From Halichondria panicea (taxonomy: Eukaryota > Porifera > Demospongiae > Suberitida > Halichondriidae), in contig NC_087380.1 in the NCBI RefSeq assembly GCF_963675165.1, positions 6,394,071 through 6,458,070 of the forward strand: a stretch of DNA of 64,000 nucleotides, given 5' to 3'. The notes beneath the pieces are model-generated. The model was given only the letters and a program-made list of their open reading frames with translations, was not told the origin of the DNA and ran no database searches. The first letter of the stretch is position 1. Each line of letters starts with the position of its first letter. Positions 8,392 to 41,300 of this stretch are shown one piece after another. The position numbers and the translations under genes are program-made.

Positions 8392-9954
8392 CTATTTAAG
8401 AAAGCATACTAACCATAATAAAGCGACAAATACACCAGGTGCAGGTACTCTTTTACTCGTGCTATTATCAACACTCACTGCTCTTTGTGATGTTCTCCAA
8501 GAAAATAATCGCTGATACCACTTTTTTTTGTGGCTTTCTTGGATTGTCTTTTCCCCTTTCTCTTCAGTATACTCTTGTCTGATCTTAGGTGGTGCTGGCT
8601 TGCTGTGAGCAGGAGATGGACTTCTATCCTCTCTCTGAATGAGCAAAGCTAGGGAAAGTAATATACGAGTCACAATCTCAACATACCTCAAAGAGGACTT
8701 CACTTGTTGATCCATGAATTAATGACACCTTTAGCACAGAAGGAGTTAGTTGACTTAGTTATGCAATTTGATCACTTCTGAGAGCCATAATAGGTTACTG
8801 GTACAATCTCTAGACAAAAGAAAATAAGCTGAATGCAACCGGGCTGAATCGAATGCAAGTGTAAAGCATTGACTTGGACTTTAAATATCCTAGCAATAGC
8901 AGCCTTTAGGTCGCGATACATTGCAAGAGAATCAGTGTCAAGCTTGAAGCAAAGTTTAACGCTTTTTTTTATCATCATCCAATCGGCTGATCTTGCAAGG
9001 CTTTACTTTCCATGCGTTGAGAAATCTTCTGAGCTCAGTGAAATACTTAGCCAAATCACGTTGATCACTTTTAGTTCCAAACTTTTTAATCACATCTTCT
9101 AGAATCTCAAAATCAAGGAACGACCAAAATGGAGAGATAATGACAAAGATTTCGTCAACACTAGCAGCCTTTCTGAGGTCTTCCTGCTGGTCAGCAAGCA
9201 GCATGTCACTCTGTTTATGAATCACAGCACGGGACGATCGATACGATGTGAGGAGGGCTACCAAGGACATCAACTTAACAATCTTCTTCTTCTTCAAAGA
9301 TTCTCTTGTTGCTGTTTGCAGGTTAGCAAACTTCTTCTCAATGGTTTTGATATCATTTGTCAGTTGCTGTTCATCATTGCTCCTATAGTTCCTTTTCTCC
9401 CCGTGGCCAGTTTCTTTGGGGGGGGGGGTTAACATTAATAGCTCTATTATAAACATACAAATTTACCTGGAGAACAGTATTTCAGCTCCAACTTCTCTGC
9501 TAATCGTATTTCACGAACCAGAGCTGACCGTAGAGCATCAATCAGTTGTTCCCATGTGGCTCCTATTGTCACCCGTAACCAATCAAGCAGGACTGCCTCT
9601 AATCGAATGGACGTTATGCTTTTCTCTTGTTCGATTGCATCGAGGGTACCAGGAGTTAACCCCAGCTTCAAACCTATCGGCCGCCACTTAGCCCTCACTT
9701 CAAACAATGCTTCATATAATAAGCTGTAAATCACTTGTCTCTAGACCTGTACATAAAAACAGACCATGTCATACGTAGTGCTGTGTGACATATGTGTGTG
9801 AAGGGTACAACCATGCACATTTATTATATAGAGCTATATATTTACTATCATTATTATATATATAGCTAATCTATACATGTCAATCTAAATAAATGGTCCA
9901 ACCTTCTATCTCATCCCTGATCACTTCAATCTTAGTAGAATCTTTTGAGGCCAT
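8392..9954 (-). pseudogene. Death-domain gene, family copy 2 (frameshifted)
   Basis: The exons correspond to 9954-9903 (MASKDSTKIEVIRDEIE), 9746-9467 (Death domain), 9413-8687 (conserved region) and 8634-8392 (basic tail with VFVALLWLVCFLK). Two breaks are seen. At the start of exon 2 the frame continued from exon 1 hits TGA just before EALFEVRAKW, because of a local insertion and a changed upstream segment. In exon 3 the poly-A run after LDDDKKK shifts the frame at about 8960. The following alternative exon is also shifted by an insertion near 8345. Unless there is an assembly error this copy cannot make the full protein. Confidence 0.7.
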
Positions 9955-15963: not shown

Positions 15964-18919
15964 CGGTGTGTTCCCCTGTGTAGATGACTCACAACTCTCC
16001 TCAGTTACACTTGTATGTTGCCCTGTGGGCTCAACCGTTTCCCCTGGTGATGGTGTAGTCTTAGCTTCATCCTCTTCTCCCTATTTAAGAAGGCATACTA
16101 TAACCATAGTAAAAGCAAAAGTAACCATAATAAAAAATGATATGGCAAGATGGTACTTTTTTACTCCCACAATTGTACTCACTACAGGGACAACGGGTAG
16201 TGACTGGCTGTGAGGAGGAGATGGATTCTGATCCTCTCTCTGAATTAATGAGCAAAGCTAGGAAAAATAACATACAAGTCACAATCTCAACATACCTCAA
16301 AGATGATTTCACTTGTTGATCCATGAATTAATGACACCTTTAGCACAGAAGGAATTATTTGTGCAATTTGATCACACTGGTGAAATGACAATTGTACTAT
16401 CCCTAGAAAGAAAAAAAGAAGCTGAATGGAACCATTCTCAATTGAATGCAAGTGTAAAGCGTAGACAGGCACTTTAAGAATCCTAGCAATGGCAGCCTTT
16501 AGGTCACGATAAATTGCAAGAGAATCAGCGTCAAGCTTGAAGCAAAATTTAACTCTTTTTTTATCATCGTCCAATCGGCTGATCTTGCAAGGCTCTATTT
16601 TCCATGTGTTGAGAAAATCTTTGAGCTCAATGAAATACGTAGCCAAATCACTTTGATCACTTTCAGCTCCAAACTTATTAATCACGTCTTCTAGAATCTC
16701 AAAGTCAAGGAATGACCAAAATGGAGAGACGATGACAAAGACTTCGTCAATACTAGCAGCCCTTCTGAGCTCTTCCTGCTGGTGGGCAAGCAGCATGTTA
16801 CTCTCACTCTCAATCACAGCACGGGACGATCGATACGATGTGAGGAGGGCTACCAGGGAAAGCAAGTCAACAGTGTCACTCTTCTTCAAAGATTCTCTCG
16901 TTGCTGTTTGCAGGTTAGTAAACTTCTTCTCAATGCTTTTGATATCATTTGTCAGTTGCTGTTCATCATCGCTTCTATACTTCCTTTTCTCCCTGTGGCC
17001 AGTTTCTATGAGGGGGAGGATTAATTAAGTGCCAGTGGTAAACACCATGTACAAAACCTTTGCAAAAATTTCGCAAAAGTTTTAATGGTCTATGCCCCAC
17101 AGTCAATTGAAGCAATCAGGGAGTTTACATAGCTCTACCGGTATAATTATAAATTACCTGGAGGACAGTACTTTAGCTCCAACTTCTCTGCTAGTTGAAT
17201 TTCACCGACCAGAGCTGACCGTAGAGCATCAATCACTTGTTTCCATGAGGCTCCTCTTGTCACCCGTAGCCAATGGAGTAGGACTGCCTCTAATCGATCA
17301 GATGGATTGATTTTCATCTGTTCGATTGCATCCAGGGTACCTGGAGTCAACCTCAGCTCCAAACCTATTGGCCGCCACTTAGCCCTCGCTTCAAACAATG
17401 CTCCATATAGATCTATAAGCTGTAAATCACTTGTGCCTAAACCTAGGTTCGTTCCTGTACACAAAACAGACCATGTCATATGTAGCTCTATGTGGTTGTA
17501 TATACCATAGATAGTAAAGGAAAGGGATTGGAAACGCATCACGTGCACCAATGTTTTCAACAGAAGTTGGATGGTACAATCCTATACTTACGATTTTTAA
17601 TGTTATTCATTGTTAGTCAAAAGGTCATTTGTTGTTTTTTGAGCTATATTTTTGGACTTCAAGATCATTCTTTCAGCGTTCAAGCCAATCAAGTAAGCTG
17701 TTTGGGTACATAAAAACATAAGCTTTCCAATGGTAGTGGTCCCATAAAGTTTGGATGGTGTATTGCACCCCAAAAAGTGTTTTTAAACCTTGAAAGTTAG
17801 GGTGAGTTGTTTACAGAAGCTCTATTGCTCAATGTAAGGTATTATGGATTGTTTACATGAGAGAATCTTGTTCTTACATAATAGAGCTATAGTATGATAT
17901 GTAGCATAAGCCTCATATTGCATGGATTAGTGATCGAGTTACAATCTGCTTTAAGTAAAAAATGTTGTACTATAGTGACAATTTTGTGGAAGCTATTTCT
18001 CAAGTAGACTTTTGCAGATTAGCTGTATTGCTTTATATTATTGTAGTACTCATGCTAGAATGTAGTATGCAACTGATTTTGGAGTGATCAGGGCATCTAT
18101 TTGTGATTTACAGAAACTTTTATATCATGTTTTTTAAAGTGATTAATTAATTGTCTTTTTAGGATGTGAAGCAAAAAGCTCGTAAGAAAAGGTGCAAGTC
18201 CTCCTCAACCGTTAACCAGATCCCACTCTCTCTCAACAAAACAAAAGCATCTAGGAAGACATGAATTCAACAATGTCATCCATAAGACATGTAGTAACCT
18301 CACCTCATATTAAGTATACATGTACGTGTTTATTTTTGCTTGTGTGTGTATACACTGTTTTTGTTTTCATTCTCTCTGCAACCACTTTAATATTATAATT
18401 ATAATTATGACATTCTTAGAGTACAAGACACTTATCATGCTTATGATTAGTGTCAAGACTCACAAAGGGAGTTTAGTAAGATAATAAATACATTGTTGTC
18501 GTGTTTATAATTTTGTAACTAAAATAGATCTAGCTTTTTTTACTGATATGGATGCCATCATGAAGCCCTTATCCTTTAACTACACTGTCCACAGTATGAG
18601 CTTAGACATGCTTAGGGCTCCAGCTTGAGATACTCTCATAATTATACCATGTGGCTTCGATTTACGCCGCAATGGAGGGGCCTGTAATCGAGGCTACAAT
18701 CCGTAAGTAGGATTGTGACATATGACGTAATGCGTTTCCAATCCCTTTCCTTTACTATCTATGTATATACCCTCACACATATTATACTATACTACATGTA
18801 CATGCATGATTCAACTAGCTAATAGCTAGATAGATCTATACATATCAATATAAATAAATGGTCCAACCTTCTATCTCATCTCTGATTACTTCAATGCTAG
18901 TAGCATCTTTTGAGGCCAT
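15964..18919 (-). CDS. Death-domain protein, family copy 3, with optional transmembrane tail
   Basis: The exons are 18919-18868, 17454-17158 (Death domain), 17005-16296 (coiled-coil-like stretch plus conserved region) and 16239-16183. Reading on through 16182-16081 adds 33 residues including HLAISFFIMVTFAFTMVIVC and a TAG stop, giving 405 residues with a clear single C-terminal membrane helix. The same 102-nt segment starts with the strong donor GTGAGT and ends in TAG, so splicing it out joins phase 0 to exon 16080-15964 and the tail exons downstream. All phases are consistent and no break is seen. Intron 1 holds a 1.26-kb transposon. Inferred role: a Death-fold adaptor made as tail-anchored or soluble forms. 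Confidence 0.78.
17505..18763. mobile_element. TIR DNA transposon, 1.26 kb, non-autonomous
   Basis: The ends are inverted copies: CCATAGATAGTAAAGGAAAG on the left, and a right end whose complement is CATAGATAGTAAAGGAAAGG. The inverted repeat continues through GGATTGGAAACGCAT. TATATA flanks both sides. It sits in intron 1 of Death copy 3. Related elements lie at 40513-41322 and 32854-33410. No transposase frame is visible inside. Confidence 0.8.
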
Positions 18920-32539: not shown

Positions 32540-34125
32540 GTGGTACTCTTTTTTCTGAGGTGTCAGTGTTAGAGTTAGGGTTTTTATGAAATATACATAG
32601 CAAAACACAGTAGAAATGTGAACGGTGACAATTTTCAAGCCTAGGTGCTTAAGAGTAGAGCTGTGCCTATTCATGTGGCTACTGCATCGGTATATAGAGC
32701 AAAGCTATTCCCAGACGAAGCTAATCAAAACACGGCAGCTTGAGCGACACCTAACTTAATGAAAATCGCTGGAATCTCCCCCTTTACTACAGATAGTGAA
32801 TTGTGGAGAGGTTGTTATGAATAATAACAAGATCTTTGCTTAGTTGGTGTGTCTATAGATAGAAGAGGAAGAGGGATTGGTAACGAAAGTACCCTCGTGT
32901 AATACCCGCTTTACCCGCGGTTCAATCGAGGCTGTGTCAACAAGCTAAAGCTGTAGATGGGCGTGTTCCGGTTAGGCCAAGCTGATGGCCTATTTCTACA
33001 CACAGTGTATAATATACCACAAGCATATATGCTCAGTCTGTGCAACTCACTCATATTTAAAGGTCTATGCCTATTTTAGTAGTTATAACCAGCACGCTTA
33101 CACGTTTTAGCAATACAAGACTATAAATAGCAGCTGTTCGCCTAAAACTTTACTGGAATGTCCCTTTTTACTGGGTGTGGTCAGTCATTAGCAAGTATAA
33201 CACGTGGCTCACAGACTGGGCGTGTTATATATTGCTGAAAAAGATTGTCTCGAGAAAACACAACTTTCTTATTGAGCGAGTTACCCGGCAAAATAGCCTC
33301 GTTTATAGGGCGTAACGCGGATAGTTTTCGAGGTTTTACTGCAGATTCAATGTAAAATGATCACGTGTACTGCTTCCATTACCAATCCCTCTTACTCTTC
33401 TATCTATGGTGTGTCACAGGCATTGTGTTATGGCCTAATCCCAGGGGGGAATCTGTAGCAAGCCCCACCCCCACCCCACCTCACAGCATAATATTGGTGG
33501 ACACTGATCTCTGATTTACATTCTACCAACAGAATCCTGATAGGACGCATGCAGTGTATCAAATGCCTCAAGTGAGTTTCACCGACCCCTTCTGTTTCAT
33601 ATCAGAGGAGGAATGCCAGGGTCAAAAAGTCATTAATTAAAACTGGCCCTGTGTTTTACATGTAAAACTGAGTATACCCTCGCGCCCCTGGGTTTATACA
33701 CTACCACTAGCTTAATCCTTTATAATCACAAGAGGAATCGGTTGAGCTATCGCGCCCCAGAGGAATCAGCTTGAGAGAAGAGATCCAGGATTTAATGACC
33801 TTTTATTACATTCTTCGAAACCACAACATTGGAAAATTAGCCTTTCGTGGCTAGTAAGCTTCCCAAGCGGGCTAATAAAGAACAGAAGCGCTAGCTGCTA
33901 TATGCAGCAAAGGTCAAGAACCTAGAACAAGAATGTTTAATCCTTCATTAAACGTGACCCTATTGACCCTGGCATTCCTCTTCTGGTTTCATATAATGTT
34001 TATCGAGTATGTAGTAGAGAATACTATAAATATTATTATAGTTGTAGTTTTGCAGTGTTCACCAATGTGAGGTGACATGCAGCTAGATCAGTAGGATTGG
34101 CAGTGGGTTTGCCCGTGTTTAGCAA
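32540..34125. repeat. Direct segmental repeat, right copy
   Basis: The partner of 29240-30525, interrupted by the transposon at 32854-33410. It contains the second GGAATGCCAGGGTCA foldback element. No gene is seen. Confidence 0.7.
32854..33410. mobile_element. TIR DNA transposon, 0.56 kb
   Basis: Left TATAGATAGAAGAGGAAGAG and right ending CTCTTCTATCTATGG are inverted, followed inward by GGGATTGGTAACG. GTGTC flanks both sides. The paralogous segment at 29780 reads GTTGATGTGTCACAGGCA without the element, confirming insertion and target-site duplication. Confidence 0.8.
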
Positions 34126-34220
34126 TATTTCACATATTTTGACTCATGTTTACTATAATTATATAGTTGTAGTTTCTTCCTATTCCAATAATGAGTGATT
34201 ACTGTACGTATACAACTTAC

Positions 34221-34391
34221 CATTTCAGGTATATTCATCTGTTCCTGCCTTGATGAATGCCTTGAAAACAATCTTTGGTACCACCTTTTCCCCCGTGTAG
34301 ATGACTCACTACTCTCCTTAGTTACTCTTGTCACTGTGGGCTCAACTGTTTCCCCTGGTGATGGTGTAGTCTTGGGTTCAGCCTCTTCTCC
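34221..34391 (-). CDS. Alternative downstream exon of Death copy 5
   Basis: 171 nt, 57 codons, phase 0 at both ends. It begins right after the TAG stop of the tail-anchor exon, whose AG is its acceptor, and ends before GTAAGTTG. It encodes a Ser/Thr/Glu-rich stretch and the basic motif GKRWYQRLFSRHSSR, a duplicate of KKWYQRLFSW in the preceding exon. Confidence 0.5.
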
Positions 34392-36250
34392 CTATTTAAG
34401 AAGGCATACTAACCATAATAAAACGACAAATACACTGATATGTCCAGGTGCAGGTACTCTTTTACTCGTGCTATTATCTACACTCACTGCTCTTTGTGAT
34501 GTTCTCCAAGAAAATAATCGCTGATACCACTTTTTTTCGTGGCTTTCTTGGATTGTCTTTTCCCCTTTCTCTTCAGTATACTCTTGTCTGATCTTAGGTG
34601 GTGGTACTGGCTTGCTATGAGCAGGAGATGGACTTCTATCCTCTCTCTGAATGAGCAAAGCTAGTGAAAGTAATATACGAGTCACAATCTCAACATACCT
34701 CAAAGAGGACTTCACTTGTTGATCCATGAATTAATGACACCTTTAGCACAGAAGGAATTATTTGACTTAGTTGTGCAATTTGATCACTTCTGAGAGCCAT
34801 AATAGGTACAATCTCTAGACAAAAGAAAATAAGCTGAATGCAACCGGGCTCAATTGAATGCAAGTGTAAAGCATAGACTTGGATTTCAAATATCCTAGCA
34901 ATAGCAGCCTTTAGGTCACGATAAATTGCAAGAGAATCGGTGTCAAGCTTGAAGCAAAGTTTCATTCGAGTTTTACCATCATCCAATCGGCTGATCTTAC
35001 AAGGCTTTGCTTTCCATGTGTTGAGAAATTCTTTGAGCTCAGTGACATACGTAGCTAAATTATGTCGATCGCTGTCAGCTCCATAAGATTCAATCACGTC
35101 TTCTAGAATCTCAAAATCAAGGAATGACCAAAATGGAGAGACAATGACAAAAATTTCGTCAACACTATCAGCCCTTTTGAGATTTTCCTGCTGGTCAAGT
35201 AGCAGCATATTACTCTCACTCTTAATCACAGCACGGGACGTTCGATACGATGTGAGGAGGGCTACCAGGGACATCAATTCAACATTACACTTCTTTAGAG
35301 ATTCTCTCGTTGCTGTTTGCAGACGAATATACTTTCTCTCAATGGTTTTGATATCGCTTGTCAGTTGCTGTTTGTCATCCTCACCACTGTGCTTTCTTTT
35401 CCTCTTTTCACTGGGGACAGTTTCTATAGGGAAAAATTAATGTATCGTCTTTTTATACTTATAATACTTACCTGGAAAACTGTGTTCCAGCTCCAACTTC
35501 TCTGCTAGTTGATTTGCACCAACTAGAACTGATCGTAGAGCATCAATCAGTTGTTCCCATGTGGCTGCTGTTGCCCCCCGTAGCCAATCGAGCAGGACTG
35601 CCTCTAATCGATCAGATGGATTGATTTTCATCTGTTCAATTGCATCGAGTGTACCGGGAGTCAACCCCAGCTCCAGACCTATCGGCCGCCACTTGGCCCT
35701 CACTTCAAACAATGCTCCATATATAAGCTTTAAATCACCTGTCTCTAAGCCTAGGGTTGTTTCTGTAAACAAAATATACCATATTATGTTACCACCATAG
35801 ATTAGCTGGTGTATAATTTAAATTTAAGCGCCAACTCAGATTGAACACTATTATTAAAATGCATGCATTTGCTATGCTAGCCTCGATCGCAGGCCGCACT
35901 TCACTCAGGGAAGTGGGCCTGGTATCGATTGCTTGCGCATGCACTAAATATCCCCCGGTATCTGGGGACTTTGGATAACATCGTATATGCTCAGTAAAAT
36001 AATGACATCACAACGAACGGAAAAGCGTGCCAACTCAAAGTGTACATAATTACATGTATATAGATCTAGATCTCTATACAGGGCTAGGGGATAGTCTTGC
36101 AAGTGCGGCCCCTGCACTCACTGAGCAGGACTTCCAAGACTAACAGGGGGAAGGTAGATATCTCAAAACTTAATTAAGGTATAAAGAGATGGTCAAACCT
36201 TCTATCTCATCCCTGATCTTTTCAATCCTATCATCATTTATTGTGGCCAT
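34392..36250 (-). CDS. Death-domain protein, family copy 5 (tail-anchor form)
   Basis: Exons 36250-36199, 35762-35472, 35423-34699 and 34646-34392 sum to 1323 nt: an open 440-residue frame with GT-AG junctions and matching phases. Exon 2 is the Death domain (AKWRPIGLELGLTPGTLDAI, LEAVLLDWLR). Exon 3 holds a Lys/Glu-rich coiled-coil-like start and the conserved region with SFLDFEILEDVIESYGADSD and PGCIQLIFFCLEIV. Exon 4 has a Pro-rich linker, the basic KKWYQRLFSW motif and a terminal VFVVLLWLVCLLK. The Death exon is the most diverged of the intact copies (GATAATWEQ). It lies downstream of an XRRA1-exon copy and a SREK1-like fragment, as in the other units. Confidence 0.8.
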
Positions 36251-36364
36251 TGAATGTTGTGTTGCTCCGTTTCTGCAAGCTAGCCAACCGGGAATTCCAA
36301 AGGCTGCCCAGCCCATTACTTAACACATTGATGGCAAATTAACCACACAACCACATCATCAAAA

Positions 36365-36562
36365 TTACACAGTACTGTCTCTAAATCTAGAGCTGGTTCT
36401 AGCAGTGTTTCTAGGAGAGCTAGTAGTGAGTGTTTGGACATCTTTACTGAACTGCACTCTTTTGGGGGTTCCCAACGTCCGCCCCTGTCCCCTTCCCTCC
36501 TGTTCCACTGTGACCGTGGTACGCAGGGAGGAGGCCCCCACTCGATCATAGCATGTCTGCAA
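36365..36562 (-). pseudogene. Copy of the XRRA1 terminal exon, still open (copy 5)
   Basis: From acceptor AG at 36564-36563 the minus strand reads LQTCYDRVGASSLRTTVTVE through to TSSPRNTARTSSRFRDSTV and a stop. This is the same frame as the XRRA1 last exon at 41789-41601. It has no upstream XRRA1 exons, so it is a passenger fragment despite being open. Confidence 0.65.
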
Positions 36563-36740
36563 CTGAGAGAGGATATGGCCACAAATGCAACAAAACATGG
36601 TTTAATACATTTACATGGACTTGGGATAAACTGCATATCGAAAATGAATGTAATTTAAGTAATATTAAAGAAGTACATAATTTATGTGTAAAAAATATAT
36701 ATGACTCACTGAGATGTGGACTAGAAATGCATTACACTAT

Positions 36741-37045
<305 letters not shown>

Positions 37046-37065
37046 TACTGTACAATGTGGTGTAC

Positions 37066-37304
37066 CTTCATCATGTCTTTGGTGGCCCTCTGATGGTGAC
37101 TACAGGTACTTGCTCTGGCACCACGACACTGGCCTCAATGGCCATCATTGCCTCTTTGACCCTCTTTCATGGCCTATTCCACATCCCTCTTGGTCGTGGG
37201 GCCCTGAGGTGGTGCAGTGTGACCCATTGGTTTGCTAGCGCTGTTGGCCAGGGCAATGGCCGGGGCTGCCAGGAAGATCGCAACCGAACCATCAGGAATC
37301 TCAG
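37066..37304 (-). pseudogene. SREK1-like composite exon fragment D
   Basis: Same exon 3-exon 6 fusion as 3306-3067: FLAAPAIALANSASKPMGHT followed by PPQGPTTKRDVE. Here a deletion removes part of the QETKRDVDEAMKK segment and shifts the frame. It is preceded by the long CA tract on its 3' side. Confidence 0.6.
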
Positions 37305-37429
37305 CTGCAGGGAGTGTGCATGTACTGTGATTACAAGACACGCATGAAGACATTGAAAAAGTGAGTCCACTACATATGTAAGGAAAACCCAATTTTCGGC
37401 TCTATCAATGTAAGTAAACAAAACATTGA

Positions 37430-37545
37430 CAACCAGAATGCAACCGGACTCAATCGAATGCAAGTGCAAAGCATAGACTTGGACTTAGCAATAGCAATCT
37501 TTATTGAGCTCAGTGACATACTCAGCCAAATTATGTCGAATTTCC
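37430..37545 (-). pseudogene. Small Death-family exon 3 remnant
   Basis: The minus strand holds pieces encoding ALHLHSIESGCIL and a stretch matching the AEYVTELN region, brought together by an internal deletion. It is surrounded by unrelated sequence. Confidence 0.55.
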
Positions 37546-38301
37546 ATCTCCCGGACCCTCCGCCGCGTGGGGGCTTTGCCCCCCATTCATTTTTCTGCCC
37601 CTCACCTAAAACATCTTCTTACGGCCCTGTTACTCTGTGCTTTGCTCCCACTGACTGTTTGGCTACAGACCATGTAAATAACATGCAGTTGCTTCAAGTC
37701 AAGCCATCAGATAGGCTTCTGTTTCCATTCAGCTCCTCTCCTATAATGACTGTGCGGAATTCAATTCTGTCAACAAATGCAATCAACAATAATAACGGAA
37801 CATTATACATAACTATACCTCTTCACCTCTTCTAATAGTTTTGGCAAAACAGCATTAGCACAGCGCAGTTGGCTCAGGTATTGCCCGGCTCGGATTTTGT
37901 CCCAGCTAGAAATGCCCTTGCGCAAATCGAAATTGTACCCTATTGCCTAGCCGAAACGCGGCCAATACTGGCACAGATGCCCCTCCATAACACACAACCA
38001 TAATAATTATTAGCAAGCATGCATGCACGTTCACATCGCATTTAATCTCAAAATGGGAAGACTAGATCTAGAAGTGTGCGCGCTTATTTCCCAGGAAATA
38101 TACAATGCATCTGACATCAGCACATGTAGAAAACATAAGCCCACGTGATCGAGTTTCCATCCCCCTCCCTCCACTACCTATGACTCACAGCCTCATTAAT
38201 TGAATAGTGATGACGCAATTTAAGACAAATGCGGTTCCACATATACTACAGGAGTTCAACACTTTTGTATAATTATAATAGGAGAATGCAATGCTACAAA
38301 G
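37546..38301. other. Intergenic region, no gene recognised
   Basis: It contains a short GC-rich palindrome (GTGGGGGCTTTGCCCCCCAT) near 37567 and otherwise AT-rich sequence. I see nothing else supportable. Confidence 0.4.
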
Positions 38302-41300
38302 TCAATCATTTGCATATAGGATACGGTGATCTAAAGAGCTAAAAGTGTTAGCAACAATAGTACAATGACAAGCATTGGCTTTGTCGACTGAGAAATTCTG
38401 TAACTTTTTGAAAACTTCGTGAGCTTGAATCATCTTGTACGTTCTCTTGCTATCGACAGCTCCAATGCGAACACCTGTTCCAACTCCAGCACCACGGCCC
38501 CTCATACCAAGACCACCTAGAATTGCGCCAACAATTCCGCCCACAATCGCACCCGCTACAGGGACAACGGAACCAATCAAAGCCCCTCCAATTATTCCTC
38601 CAGCAAATCCTGAGGCAGTGCCAGCCAAAGGGATAGCCAAAGCGACAACACCACCTCCAGCTACAGGGGCAAGGGAACCAGCCAAAGTTGTCCCTCCAGC
38701 AATGCCAGCAACAGCGCCTCCAGCAATCCCTGTGGCAGTGCCAACAGCTGAAGCACCAATCACAAGTGGTTTACTACCGTATACACGAACCAGACAGTCG
38801 GCTTGAACAGTTAGATACAAAATGTGAGTCGAGATATTTTGCTTGTGTTTCCTTTGGGCGTTAGGTGGAATAGGTCTTGGTTGCTCATCAAGCTGTTCAT
38901 TTGCAGTGAAATGGACACTACCTTCGATTGCACCAGTTAGCGGTTGTTGAGCTAAGTTTAAATGTGCGCTTGCATTAGCAGAGGGGTTGCCTGGAAACAA
39001 GTATTCTCGTTCTGTACGATTGGTCTCAACGAGTTGTTGACCCCCGAGTACACATGATGGGGCGACAGGTTCAATTCTTGTCACACTAATAGCATCGAGG
39101 AATGTCTGCAAGTCAACTCTGTCAATGTGAGATGACTCATTAAACTTTTCTTTGGCTACAGCTTCGACAGCAGCCTGCACTTTCTTTCTGATTTCAGTTG
39201 TAATCTCATTTTCAGCCATTTTGTTCTATATAATACATGTATAGCATGAAAGTCTATATAAATATATAAATAAGGAAAAAGGCGGGAAAATAATATACGA
39301 GTCACAATCTCAACATACCTCAAAGATGATTTCACTTGTTGATCCATGAATTAATGACACCTTTAGCACAGAAGGAATTATTTGTGCAATTTGATCACAC
39401 TGGTGAAATGATAATTGTACTATCCCTAGAAAGAAAAAAATAAGCTGAATGGAACCATCCTCGATTGAATGCAAGTGTAAAGTGTAGACAGGCACTTTAA
39501 GAATCCTAGCAATAGCAGCCTTTAGGTCACGATAAATTGCAAGAGATTCAGCGTCAAGCTTGAAGCAAAATTTGACTCTTTTTTTATCATCGTCCAATCG
39601 GCTGTTCTTGCAAGGCTCTACTTTCCATGTGTTGAGAAATTCTCTGAGCTCAATGAAATACGTAGCCAAATCACTTTGATCACTTTCAGCTCCAAACTTA
39701 TTAATCACGTCTTCTAGAATCTCAAAGTCAAGGAATGACCAAAATGGAGAGACGATGACAAAGACTTCGTCAACACTAGCAGCCCTTCTGAGCTCTTCCT
39801 GCTGGTGGGCAAGCAGCATGTTACTCTCACTCTCAATCACAGCACGGGACGATCGATACGATGTGAGGAGGGCTACCAGGGAAAGCAAGTCAACAGTGTC
39901 ACTCTTCTTCAAAGATTCTCTCGTTGCTGTTTGCAGGTTAGTAAACTTCTTCTCAATGGTTTTGATATCATTTGTCAGTTGCTGTTCATCATCGCTTCTA
40001 TACTTCCTTTTCTCCCTGTGGCCAGTTTCTATGAGGGGGAGGATTAATTAAGTGCCAGTGGTAAACACAATGTACAAAACCTTTGCGAAAATTTCGCAAC
40101 AGTTTTAATGGTCTATGCCCCACAGTCAATTGAAGCAATCGGGGAGTTAACATTAATAGCTCTATCGGTATAATTATATAAATATAAAAATTACCTGGAG
40201 GACAGTACTTCAGCTCCAACTTCTCTGCTAGTTGAATTTCACCGACCAGAGCTGACCGTAGAGCATCAATCACTTGTTTCCATGAGGCTCCTCTTGTCAC
40301 CCGTAGCCAATCAAGCAGGACCGCCTCTAATCGATTGGACGTTTTGCTTTTCTCCTGTTCGATTGCCTCCAGGGTACCTGGAGTCAAACTCAGCTCCAGA
40401 CCTATCGGCCGCCACTTAGCCCTCACTTCAAACAATGCTCCATATATAAGCTGTAAATCACTTGTGCCTAAACCTAGGTTCGTTCCTGTACACAAAAACA
40501 GACTATGTCATACCATAGATAAACGAAAGAAAGGGATAGGCAACGCCCAGCACTTCCGTTGGATGAGGCTAGTTGCGTAAAAAGGGGTGTGTAATGAGCA
40601 AAAAGGGGTGTGTGCACTCAAAATGTCAGTAAAGATTTTATAGCAAGCTGTGCTCTTGAGGACCAGATACACTTAGACATAGGCTATTCATCTTTTAGAG
40701 CAAAGTGATGAAGAAGTGAGCTCCAAAGGGGGTGTCAGTACTCTCTACAAACCATAACAGGTATGTTCCCAAGTCCTTCAAATGCCATCTCTTCGATCAC
40801 ACAATACAGATAAAGATGCTTGTGTTCCACTTTCTAATACCTAAGCTGTGTCTTAGAGCACTTCAAACTAGATTACCATGTACAGTAAGAGCAGGAGAGC
40901 TAGGTACGCAAACTTTCTGGACACTTCGGACAAACGTTTCATGGTGCTGCCACTACTTCACTACATTATGAGCTGGCAAATATGCTTTGTTCCATGTAGT
41001 TATAAACACTCTGTGAAACGTACATGTTATTTCATATTGGAAAAGGTACGTGTTATTTCACACAAATCAAGCTGAATAAAAGAAAGCTCGGCACTAACAT
41101 AGCAGCTGTAGCTATCAGTAGTGCTGGGTGTATGTGTGCATGATGCCTGGTTGCTTTAAATTTCTCTTTTAGGCCCCCTACGAGAAAACTAAGCAGATAT
41201 AGGGATCATTGTGTACTTTCTTGAGCGCAACTCGCCTCCAACCAGAGGGTGTGACGCCACACACTGCATTTACCTAGCATCACGTGGGGCGTTGCCTATC

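Follow-up and report, generated by a model that had tools for sequence, protein, structure and literature searches.

A probable chimera between a Death/TRADD-N-like gene and a complete glycine-zipper gene in a Death gene cluster of the sponge Halichondria panicea

Copy 6 of a tandem family of Death genes is, with high confidence, a chimera—its 5' half is Death/TRADD-N-like and the rest of the locus is a complete glycine-zipper gene. The locus is encoded on the minus strand of the window, by which we mean the whole 64,000-nt stretch analysed here, and the window belongs to contig C4 of a 131-Mb genome. Donor and recipient families, the unaltered sister copies, and the junction between the two parts are all found on this one contig, so the exchange can be traced base by base. 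What the locus makes is a question of several candidate products; the single most likely, at somewhat short of an even chance on the sequence features described below, is one Death–TRADD-N-like–glycine-zipper protein, in which exon 3 would be spliced to the zipper frame. In having its usual tail replaced, copy 6 resembles immune-type genes that exchange their effector end.

Architecture of the locus and identity of the Death half

The features of copy 6 are given below in window positions, together with a related remnant in a neighbouring copy.

40485-40195, minus strand: Death-like exon of copy 6 (phase 1 in and out; PF00531, 21.9 bits)
40028-39319, minus strand: exon 3 of copy 6, probably TRADD-N-like (710 nt; ends in phase 0; intact GTATGT donor)
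39318-39284, minus strand: start of intron 3, the last part in common with the Death family (35 nt; from blastn end points)
39283-39231, minus strand: stretch with no blastn match to either family (53 nt; contains a pyrimidine tract and an out-of-phase AG at 39254)
39227-39226, minus strand: candidate in-phase splice acceptor AG that would fuse both parts (from the reading frame)
39219-38302, minus strand: complete ORF of the glycine-zipper family with its own ATG (305 aa)
38778-38446, minus strand: hydrophobic Gly/Ala GxxxG core, residues 148-258 (from GxxxG count and hydropathy)
38301-38270, minus strand: short 3' flank, partly alignable to the nearest zipper relative (from DNA alignment)
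16161-16196, minus strand: zipper remnant in exon 4 of the Death copy at C4:6410366 (36 nt, 31/36 identical to the nearest relative)

The GT donor of exon 3 lies at 39318, and an open frame begins 93 nt later, running from 39225 to 38302 for 307 codons before its stop and including the ATG at 39219. An in-phase frame of 307 residues had been predicted originally, and it is there: the phase-0 end of exon 3 agrees with the AG at 39226, and the 307 codons that follow are open. Further upstream, an ATG element at about 41659 is a candidate exon 1 of copy 6; it recurs at three further places in the cluster, with no donor established. Exon 3 of the next Death copy is only 4.6 kb away from that of copy 6, and a tRNA scan of 36000-41000 found none. 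Between copies 5 and 6 lies a long simple-sequence repeat (36743-37093) of His-Thr or Cys-Val codons.

The Death-like exon scores just below the PF00531 cut-off (21.9 bits against 22.6; E 2e-4). The Death label is supported by above-cut-off PF00531 matches that directly precede three distant relatives of exon 3, at C2:6116687, C3:8282528, and C3:8275438. Genome-wide there are at least 148 Death matches, from 150 scored among 503 candidates. Exon 3 itself occurs in ten close copies at C4:6.324-6.434 Mb and in 108 matched pieces across the genome.

Assigning exon 3 takes several lines of evidence. A Pfam search with the copy 6 exon gave no match, a sequence search of solved structures returned nothing better than E 0.2, and the best solved structure for the exon-3 profile was VapS at E 0.029. 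PF20694 (TRADD-like_N) matches weakly in 3 of 14 aligned members, copy 6 not among them (best E 0.0028), and falls below its cut-off in both members with printed scores; genome-wide its one match is sub-threshold (20.7 bits, cut-off 23.7) and overlaps an exon-3-type match on C5. All 14 aligned members, drawn from the 108 matched pieces, carry Gly followed by Ser or Cys at one position, which would correspond to the beta2-beta3 turn. The passages of PMC8195603 on TRADD-N domains describe a motif of a tiny residue plus Ser (or Cys) in that turn; they also report 357 NCOA6-clade TRADD-N proteins in the sponge Amphimedon; in the majority of architectures, one to three Death-like domains precede TRADD-N and a variable C-terminus follows it. 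On the strength of the weak PF20694 matches, the Gly-Ser/Cys position, and this published motif and architecture, we regard exon 3 as TRADD-N-like with moderate confidence.

Two observations concern other members of the cluster. The Death copies at C4:6324605 and C4:6394589, 70 kb apart, have in common a 3-kb downstream stretch at 99% identity (among the matches listed, with pieces of at least 80 nt), which suggests that the cluster has recently undergone duplication or conversion. In the copy at C4:6402757 (window 8687-9405), exon 3 is matched as three pieces, contains a TGA and a TAA, and is probably broken.

Origin and age of the glycine-zipper insert

Blastn similarity between copy 6 and the nine other Death copies, tabulated for pieces above 60 nt, stops at 39284 in seven copies and at 39286 in two. 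The break is thus 33-35 nt into intron 3, close to the divergence at about 39 nt that had been proposed. The nine other copies continue into their own exon 4, and copy 6 has no family exon 4; intron 3 is 51-56 nt long in the eight paralogs measured. A WYQRLF-type motif is found twice within the next 600 nt in 8 of the 9 ordinary copies, where it sits in exons 4 and 5 (for example at window 34122-34391), and is absent from copy 6 and from C4:6410366. In the exon-3 tree copy 6 pairs with C4:6410366 (support 0.988). Since this sister retains a shortened exon 4, and the other copies keep theirs, the replacement in copy 6 is the derived state. The idea of an exon replacement survives in part—the family exon 4 is gone, but what took its place is a whole gene of a standalone kind that brings its own conserved start codon, and not an exon that arose for fusion.

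The zipper family comprises 16 matched pieces, all on C4: in the window, at 1.157 Mb, and in a tandem cluster at 1.459-1.488 Mb, which places the standalone relatives about 5 million bases from copy 6. Ten single-ORF relatives were aligned with the window protein. The nearest, at C4:1460871-1461710, is 82% identical overall (87% over residues 1-167, 73% over residues 188-301), and nine of the ten retain the start Met; the tenth is frame-shifted at the start. DNA homology between copy 6 and the nearest relative sets in about 11 nt ahead of the ATG and ends shortly after the stop codon. Because it spans the whole ORF plus short flanks, the unit that moved was a whole gene.

About 75 nt of 5' flank are common to several short-form relatives, as would fit independent genes. 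None of the 148 Death matches or 108 exon-3 pieces lies near a zipper relative; tblastn with the Death exon and exon 3 gave 0 hits in the 40-kb zipper cluster, and its two hits in the 10 kb at 1.157 Mb look like chance, one of 10 residues (E 0.5) and one of 19 (E 0.16). Three frames in the donor cluster, L047:950-1648, L048:8822-9499, and L048:419-1033, match the N- and C-terminal parts of the family profile but not its zipper core. At least six viral-contig loci and at least one bacterial locus match residues 157-286 of the zipper protein, that is, the core and part of the C end. A LINE-type retrocopy was considered and rejected as the route of insertion: a 7-nt TATTATA repeat flanks the insert on both sides, but 6.6% of AT-matched control pairs do as well. 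No poly-A run is seen in the sequence at the insert.

The membrane-like Gly/Ala core described in the original prediction is borne out by composition. GxxxG pairs number 16 in residues 148-258, where 5000 shuffles average 9.3 (p 0.003); small-xxx-small pairs in the core are not enriched (34 versus 31 shuffled, p 0.17). Many 19-residue windows exceed 1.6 on the Kyte-Doolittle scale, with a maximum of 2.11, in the range of membrane segments. A sequence search of solved structures with the zipper protein returned none.

The two halves differ in their distances. Exon 3 of copy 6 is separated from its sister at C4:6410366 by a dS of 0.026 (dN/dS 0.70), and the zipper gene from its nearest relative by a dS of 0.217 (dN/dS 0.48 overall); these comparisons cover 5 of the 9 copies for exon 3 and 2 of the 10 relatives for the insert. 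The simplest reading of this pair of figures suggests a young join—a recent union with an already old zipper lineage. A closer donor since lost, or gene conversion among the Death copies, would produce these same two dS figures. By region, dN/dS against the nearest relative is 0.23 for residues 1-150, 0.86 for the core, and 0.76 for the C end; against the second relative it is 0.75 overall, and 0.76, 0.43, and 1.69 for the same three regions. For the zipper, constraint thus shows clearly in the N-terminal half alone, and there on the recent branch alone.

These figures bear on the proposal that copy 6 is a dead chimera or an assembly artefact, with no functional product, which we consider very improbable. 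Decay does occur in the cluster: stops interrupt exon 3 of C4:6402757, and on our reading C4:6381656 has its exon 4 out of frame. The overall ratio of 0.75 against the second relative would also fit a dead gene. The insert has nonetheless kept 307 open codons despite several indels relative to the nearest relative, and the ratios against that relative, 0.48 overall and 0.23 in residues 1-150, speak against a dead gene.

Candidate products and recurrence of the pairing

For the fused protein, we envisage that the Death promoter and the intact exon-3 donor would drive a transcript through the glycine-zipper gene, and that some transcripts, at least, would be spliced from 39318 to 39226 to encode one protein. 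The Death/TRADD-N-like half may then recruit or oligomerise the fused molecule, and the glycine zipper, judging from its composition, may carry it into a membrane, where it might act as a pore or an anchor. The donor is intact, the phases match, and the frame is open; moreover, the Death half has no other known last exon. No inherited zipper promoter is visible either, as nothing upstream of about -11 matches the 5' flanks of the ten relatives.

The splice acceptor calls for closer reading. Long-form zipper relatives already have an AG 6 nt upstream of the ATG (TATAG followed by AACAAAATGG, and GCTAG followed by AATAAAATGG). Because the acceptor was inherited from the 5' flank of the standalone gene, its phase agreement with exon 3 is a 1-in-3 event, and in-phase reading is weak evidence for fusion. 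The pyrimidine fraction preceding the AG at 39226 is 0.56, and that of the out-of-phase AG at 39254 is somewhat better at 0.67; across 28 inferred acceptor instances in the cluster it ranges from 0.50 to 0.94. With 0.56 inside this range, the AG at 39226 is not disqualified.

Counting against a fusion is the conserved start codon of the zipper ORF, which leads to a serious though less probable reading. Here the locus would hold a truncated Death/TRADD-N-like gene and, next to it, a separate zipper gene that is transcribed independently and translated from the ATG at 39219. The relatives that keep the start Met have no Death or exon-3 module found beside them, the ATG context AACAAAATGG is retained, and residues 1-150 are under purifying selection relative to the nearest relative—a signal that can reflect a standalone past of the gene and does not show against the second relative. 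Two independent genes would have to fit a gap of only 53 nt between the end of Death homology and the start of zipper homology; the zipper gene would lack the upstream flank found in its relatives, and the Death half would either read two codons into a retained intron and then stop, or have no known last exon.

A third reading, which we think unlikely, has one transcript with two products. Exon 3 would be spliced to 39253, giving the Death half a 13-residue tail, TFMLYMYYIEQNG, and the zipper would be made by reinitiation or not from that RNA. The AG at 39254 is the first past the pyrimidine tract, and its use would give a 65-nt intron, nearer the paralogs' 51-56 nt than the 93 nt of the in-phase alternative. 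The TGA that ends this Death frame overlaps the zipper ATG (ATGGCTGA; 39219-39253), though the overlap may be chance. Reinitiation after an upstream frame of more than 300 codons is inefficient in animals, which weighs against the second product.

The pairing of Death and zipper sequences extends beyond copy 6. Pieces of the zipper gene lie inside exon 4 of three of the nine other Death copies (C4:6360845, C4:6410366, and C4:6348674); with all ten copies tested, the remaining six gave no zipper match at E 0.01. The longest, a 130-nt piece at C4:6360620-6360749, is identical to the nearest relative at 106 of 133 positions (E 3e-27) and encodes 43 residues in the Death reading frame, inside the 300-nt open exon 4 of C4:6360845. 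Two further searches recovered it, one of the whole genome at the DNA level with the window gene as query (E 4e-7) and one with the profile (E 1.8e-5). The remnant in C4:6410366 was compared with just the 11 family genes (E 3e-6), and the piece in C4:6348674 is damaged (E 7e-5).

Where all three can be compared, the C4:6360845 piece is more like the standalone gene (106/127) than like the copy-6 insert (91/121), which suggests that the two were separate captures; as to a single shared origin, only one site is quartet-informative. With zipper pieces in exon 4 of three other Death copies, the pairing may have arisen more than once. The original suggestion of a Death-zipper fusion is favoured by these copies, one holding a long in-frame piece; the phase agreement at copy 6, a 1-in-3 event, adds little to it. 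A bolder and doubtful extension is that Death/TRADD-N-like genes repeatedly capture the zipper module from a distant tandem cluster, that the hinge after the TRADD-N-like exon is a live effector-swap site, and that copy 6 is a young, self-contained Death-to-membrane executioner. Such a history, which we hold only tentatively, would comprise a whole gene captured once (copy 6) and an in-frame internal piece at least once (C4:6360620-6360749), plus relics.

Comparison with known systems

The zipper protein resembles several known families in having a Gly/Ala-rich or GxxxG-rich segment. ISG12/IFI6 proteins (PF06140) likewise carry a Gly/Ala-rich hydrophobic segment, and a similarity of the ISG12 type had been put forward earlier as unconfirmed; it found no support, since none of the 11 zipper-family members was matched by PF06140 at E up to 1. 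As positive controls, three ISG12 frames from the same genome score 61-66 bits with PF06140, and the nine PF06140 matches in the genome cluster on another contig (C10:2562972-2715647). The zipper and PF06140 profiles align with a probability of 27.6% (E 6.5e-4, 58 columns), and a short-form zipper relative weakly matches a stretch overlapping a PF06140 match (C10:2579411, E 4e-4). We read both as composition in common and reject membership in the ISG12 family.

The glycine-zipper families PF13441 and PF05433 also have a spaced GxxxG core. PF13441 matches 2 of the 11 family members weakly (best E 0.0013), the window protein not among them, and PF05433 matches none. A profile search of the window protein, one of the checks proposed with the original prediction, returned no glycine-zipper family at E up to 1.

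A different pairing of such a zipper core occurs on another contig. The frame at C14:4560700-4561300 (L068) has a glycine-zipper tail that is 57% identical over 47 residues to the core of a short-form member; there the tail is joined to an LRAT domain (PF04970, 32.3 bits, cut-off 24.3) instead of a Death-like unit.

In literature searches we found no Death-glycine-zipper protein in print, which does not prove its absence; the one paper found to bring glycine zippers and death domains together concerns bacterial systems (PMC11090510).

The closest published parallel is in PMC8195603, whose relevant sections describe large Death plus TRADD-N families with ever-changing C-termini in marine invertebrates. 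Like copy 6, these expansions (NCOA6 clade) have a Death-like part, a TRADD-N-like exon or domain, and then a changing C-terminus; both the Amphimedon set and the Death family described here are lineage-specific expansions. A C-terminus that varies after a constant unit is what copy 6 displays against its nine sister copies. There are differences: the TRADD-N assignment of exon 3 lies below the Pfam cut-off, and the Amphimedon tails given in section 10—ankyrin, SH3-LRR, kinase, MATH, SH2, PDZ, caspase, PNPase, and HD—include no named zipper tail; in the main text the word "glycine" appears once, concerning a motif. If the fusion is expressed, it would offer a direct test of whether a Death-fold unit drives a glycine zipper into membranes, and it would add a membrane-type effector to the tails of the Death plus TRADD-N class. 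Among the systems compared, copy 6 best fits the Death plus TRADD-N unit with a variable C-terminus, as that unit is described in these sections of PMC8195603.
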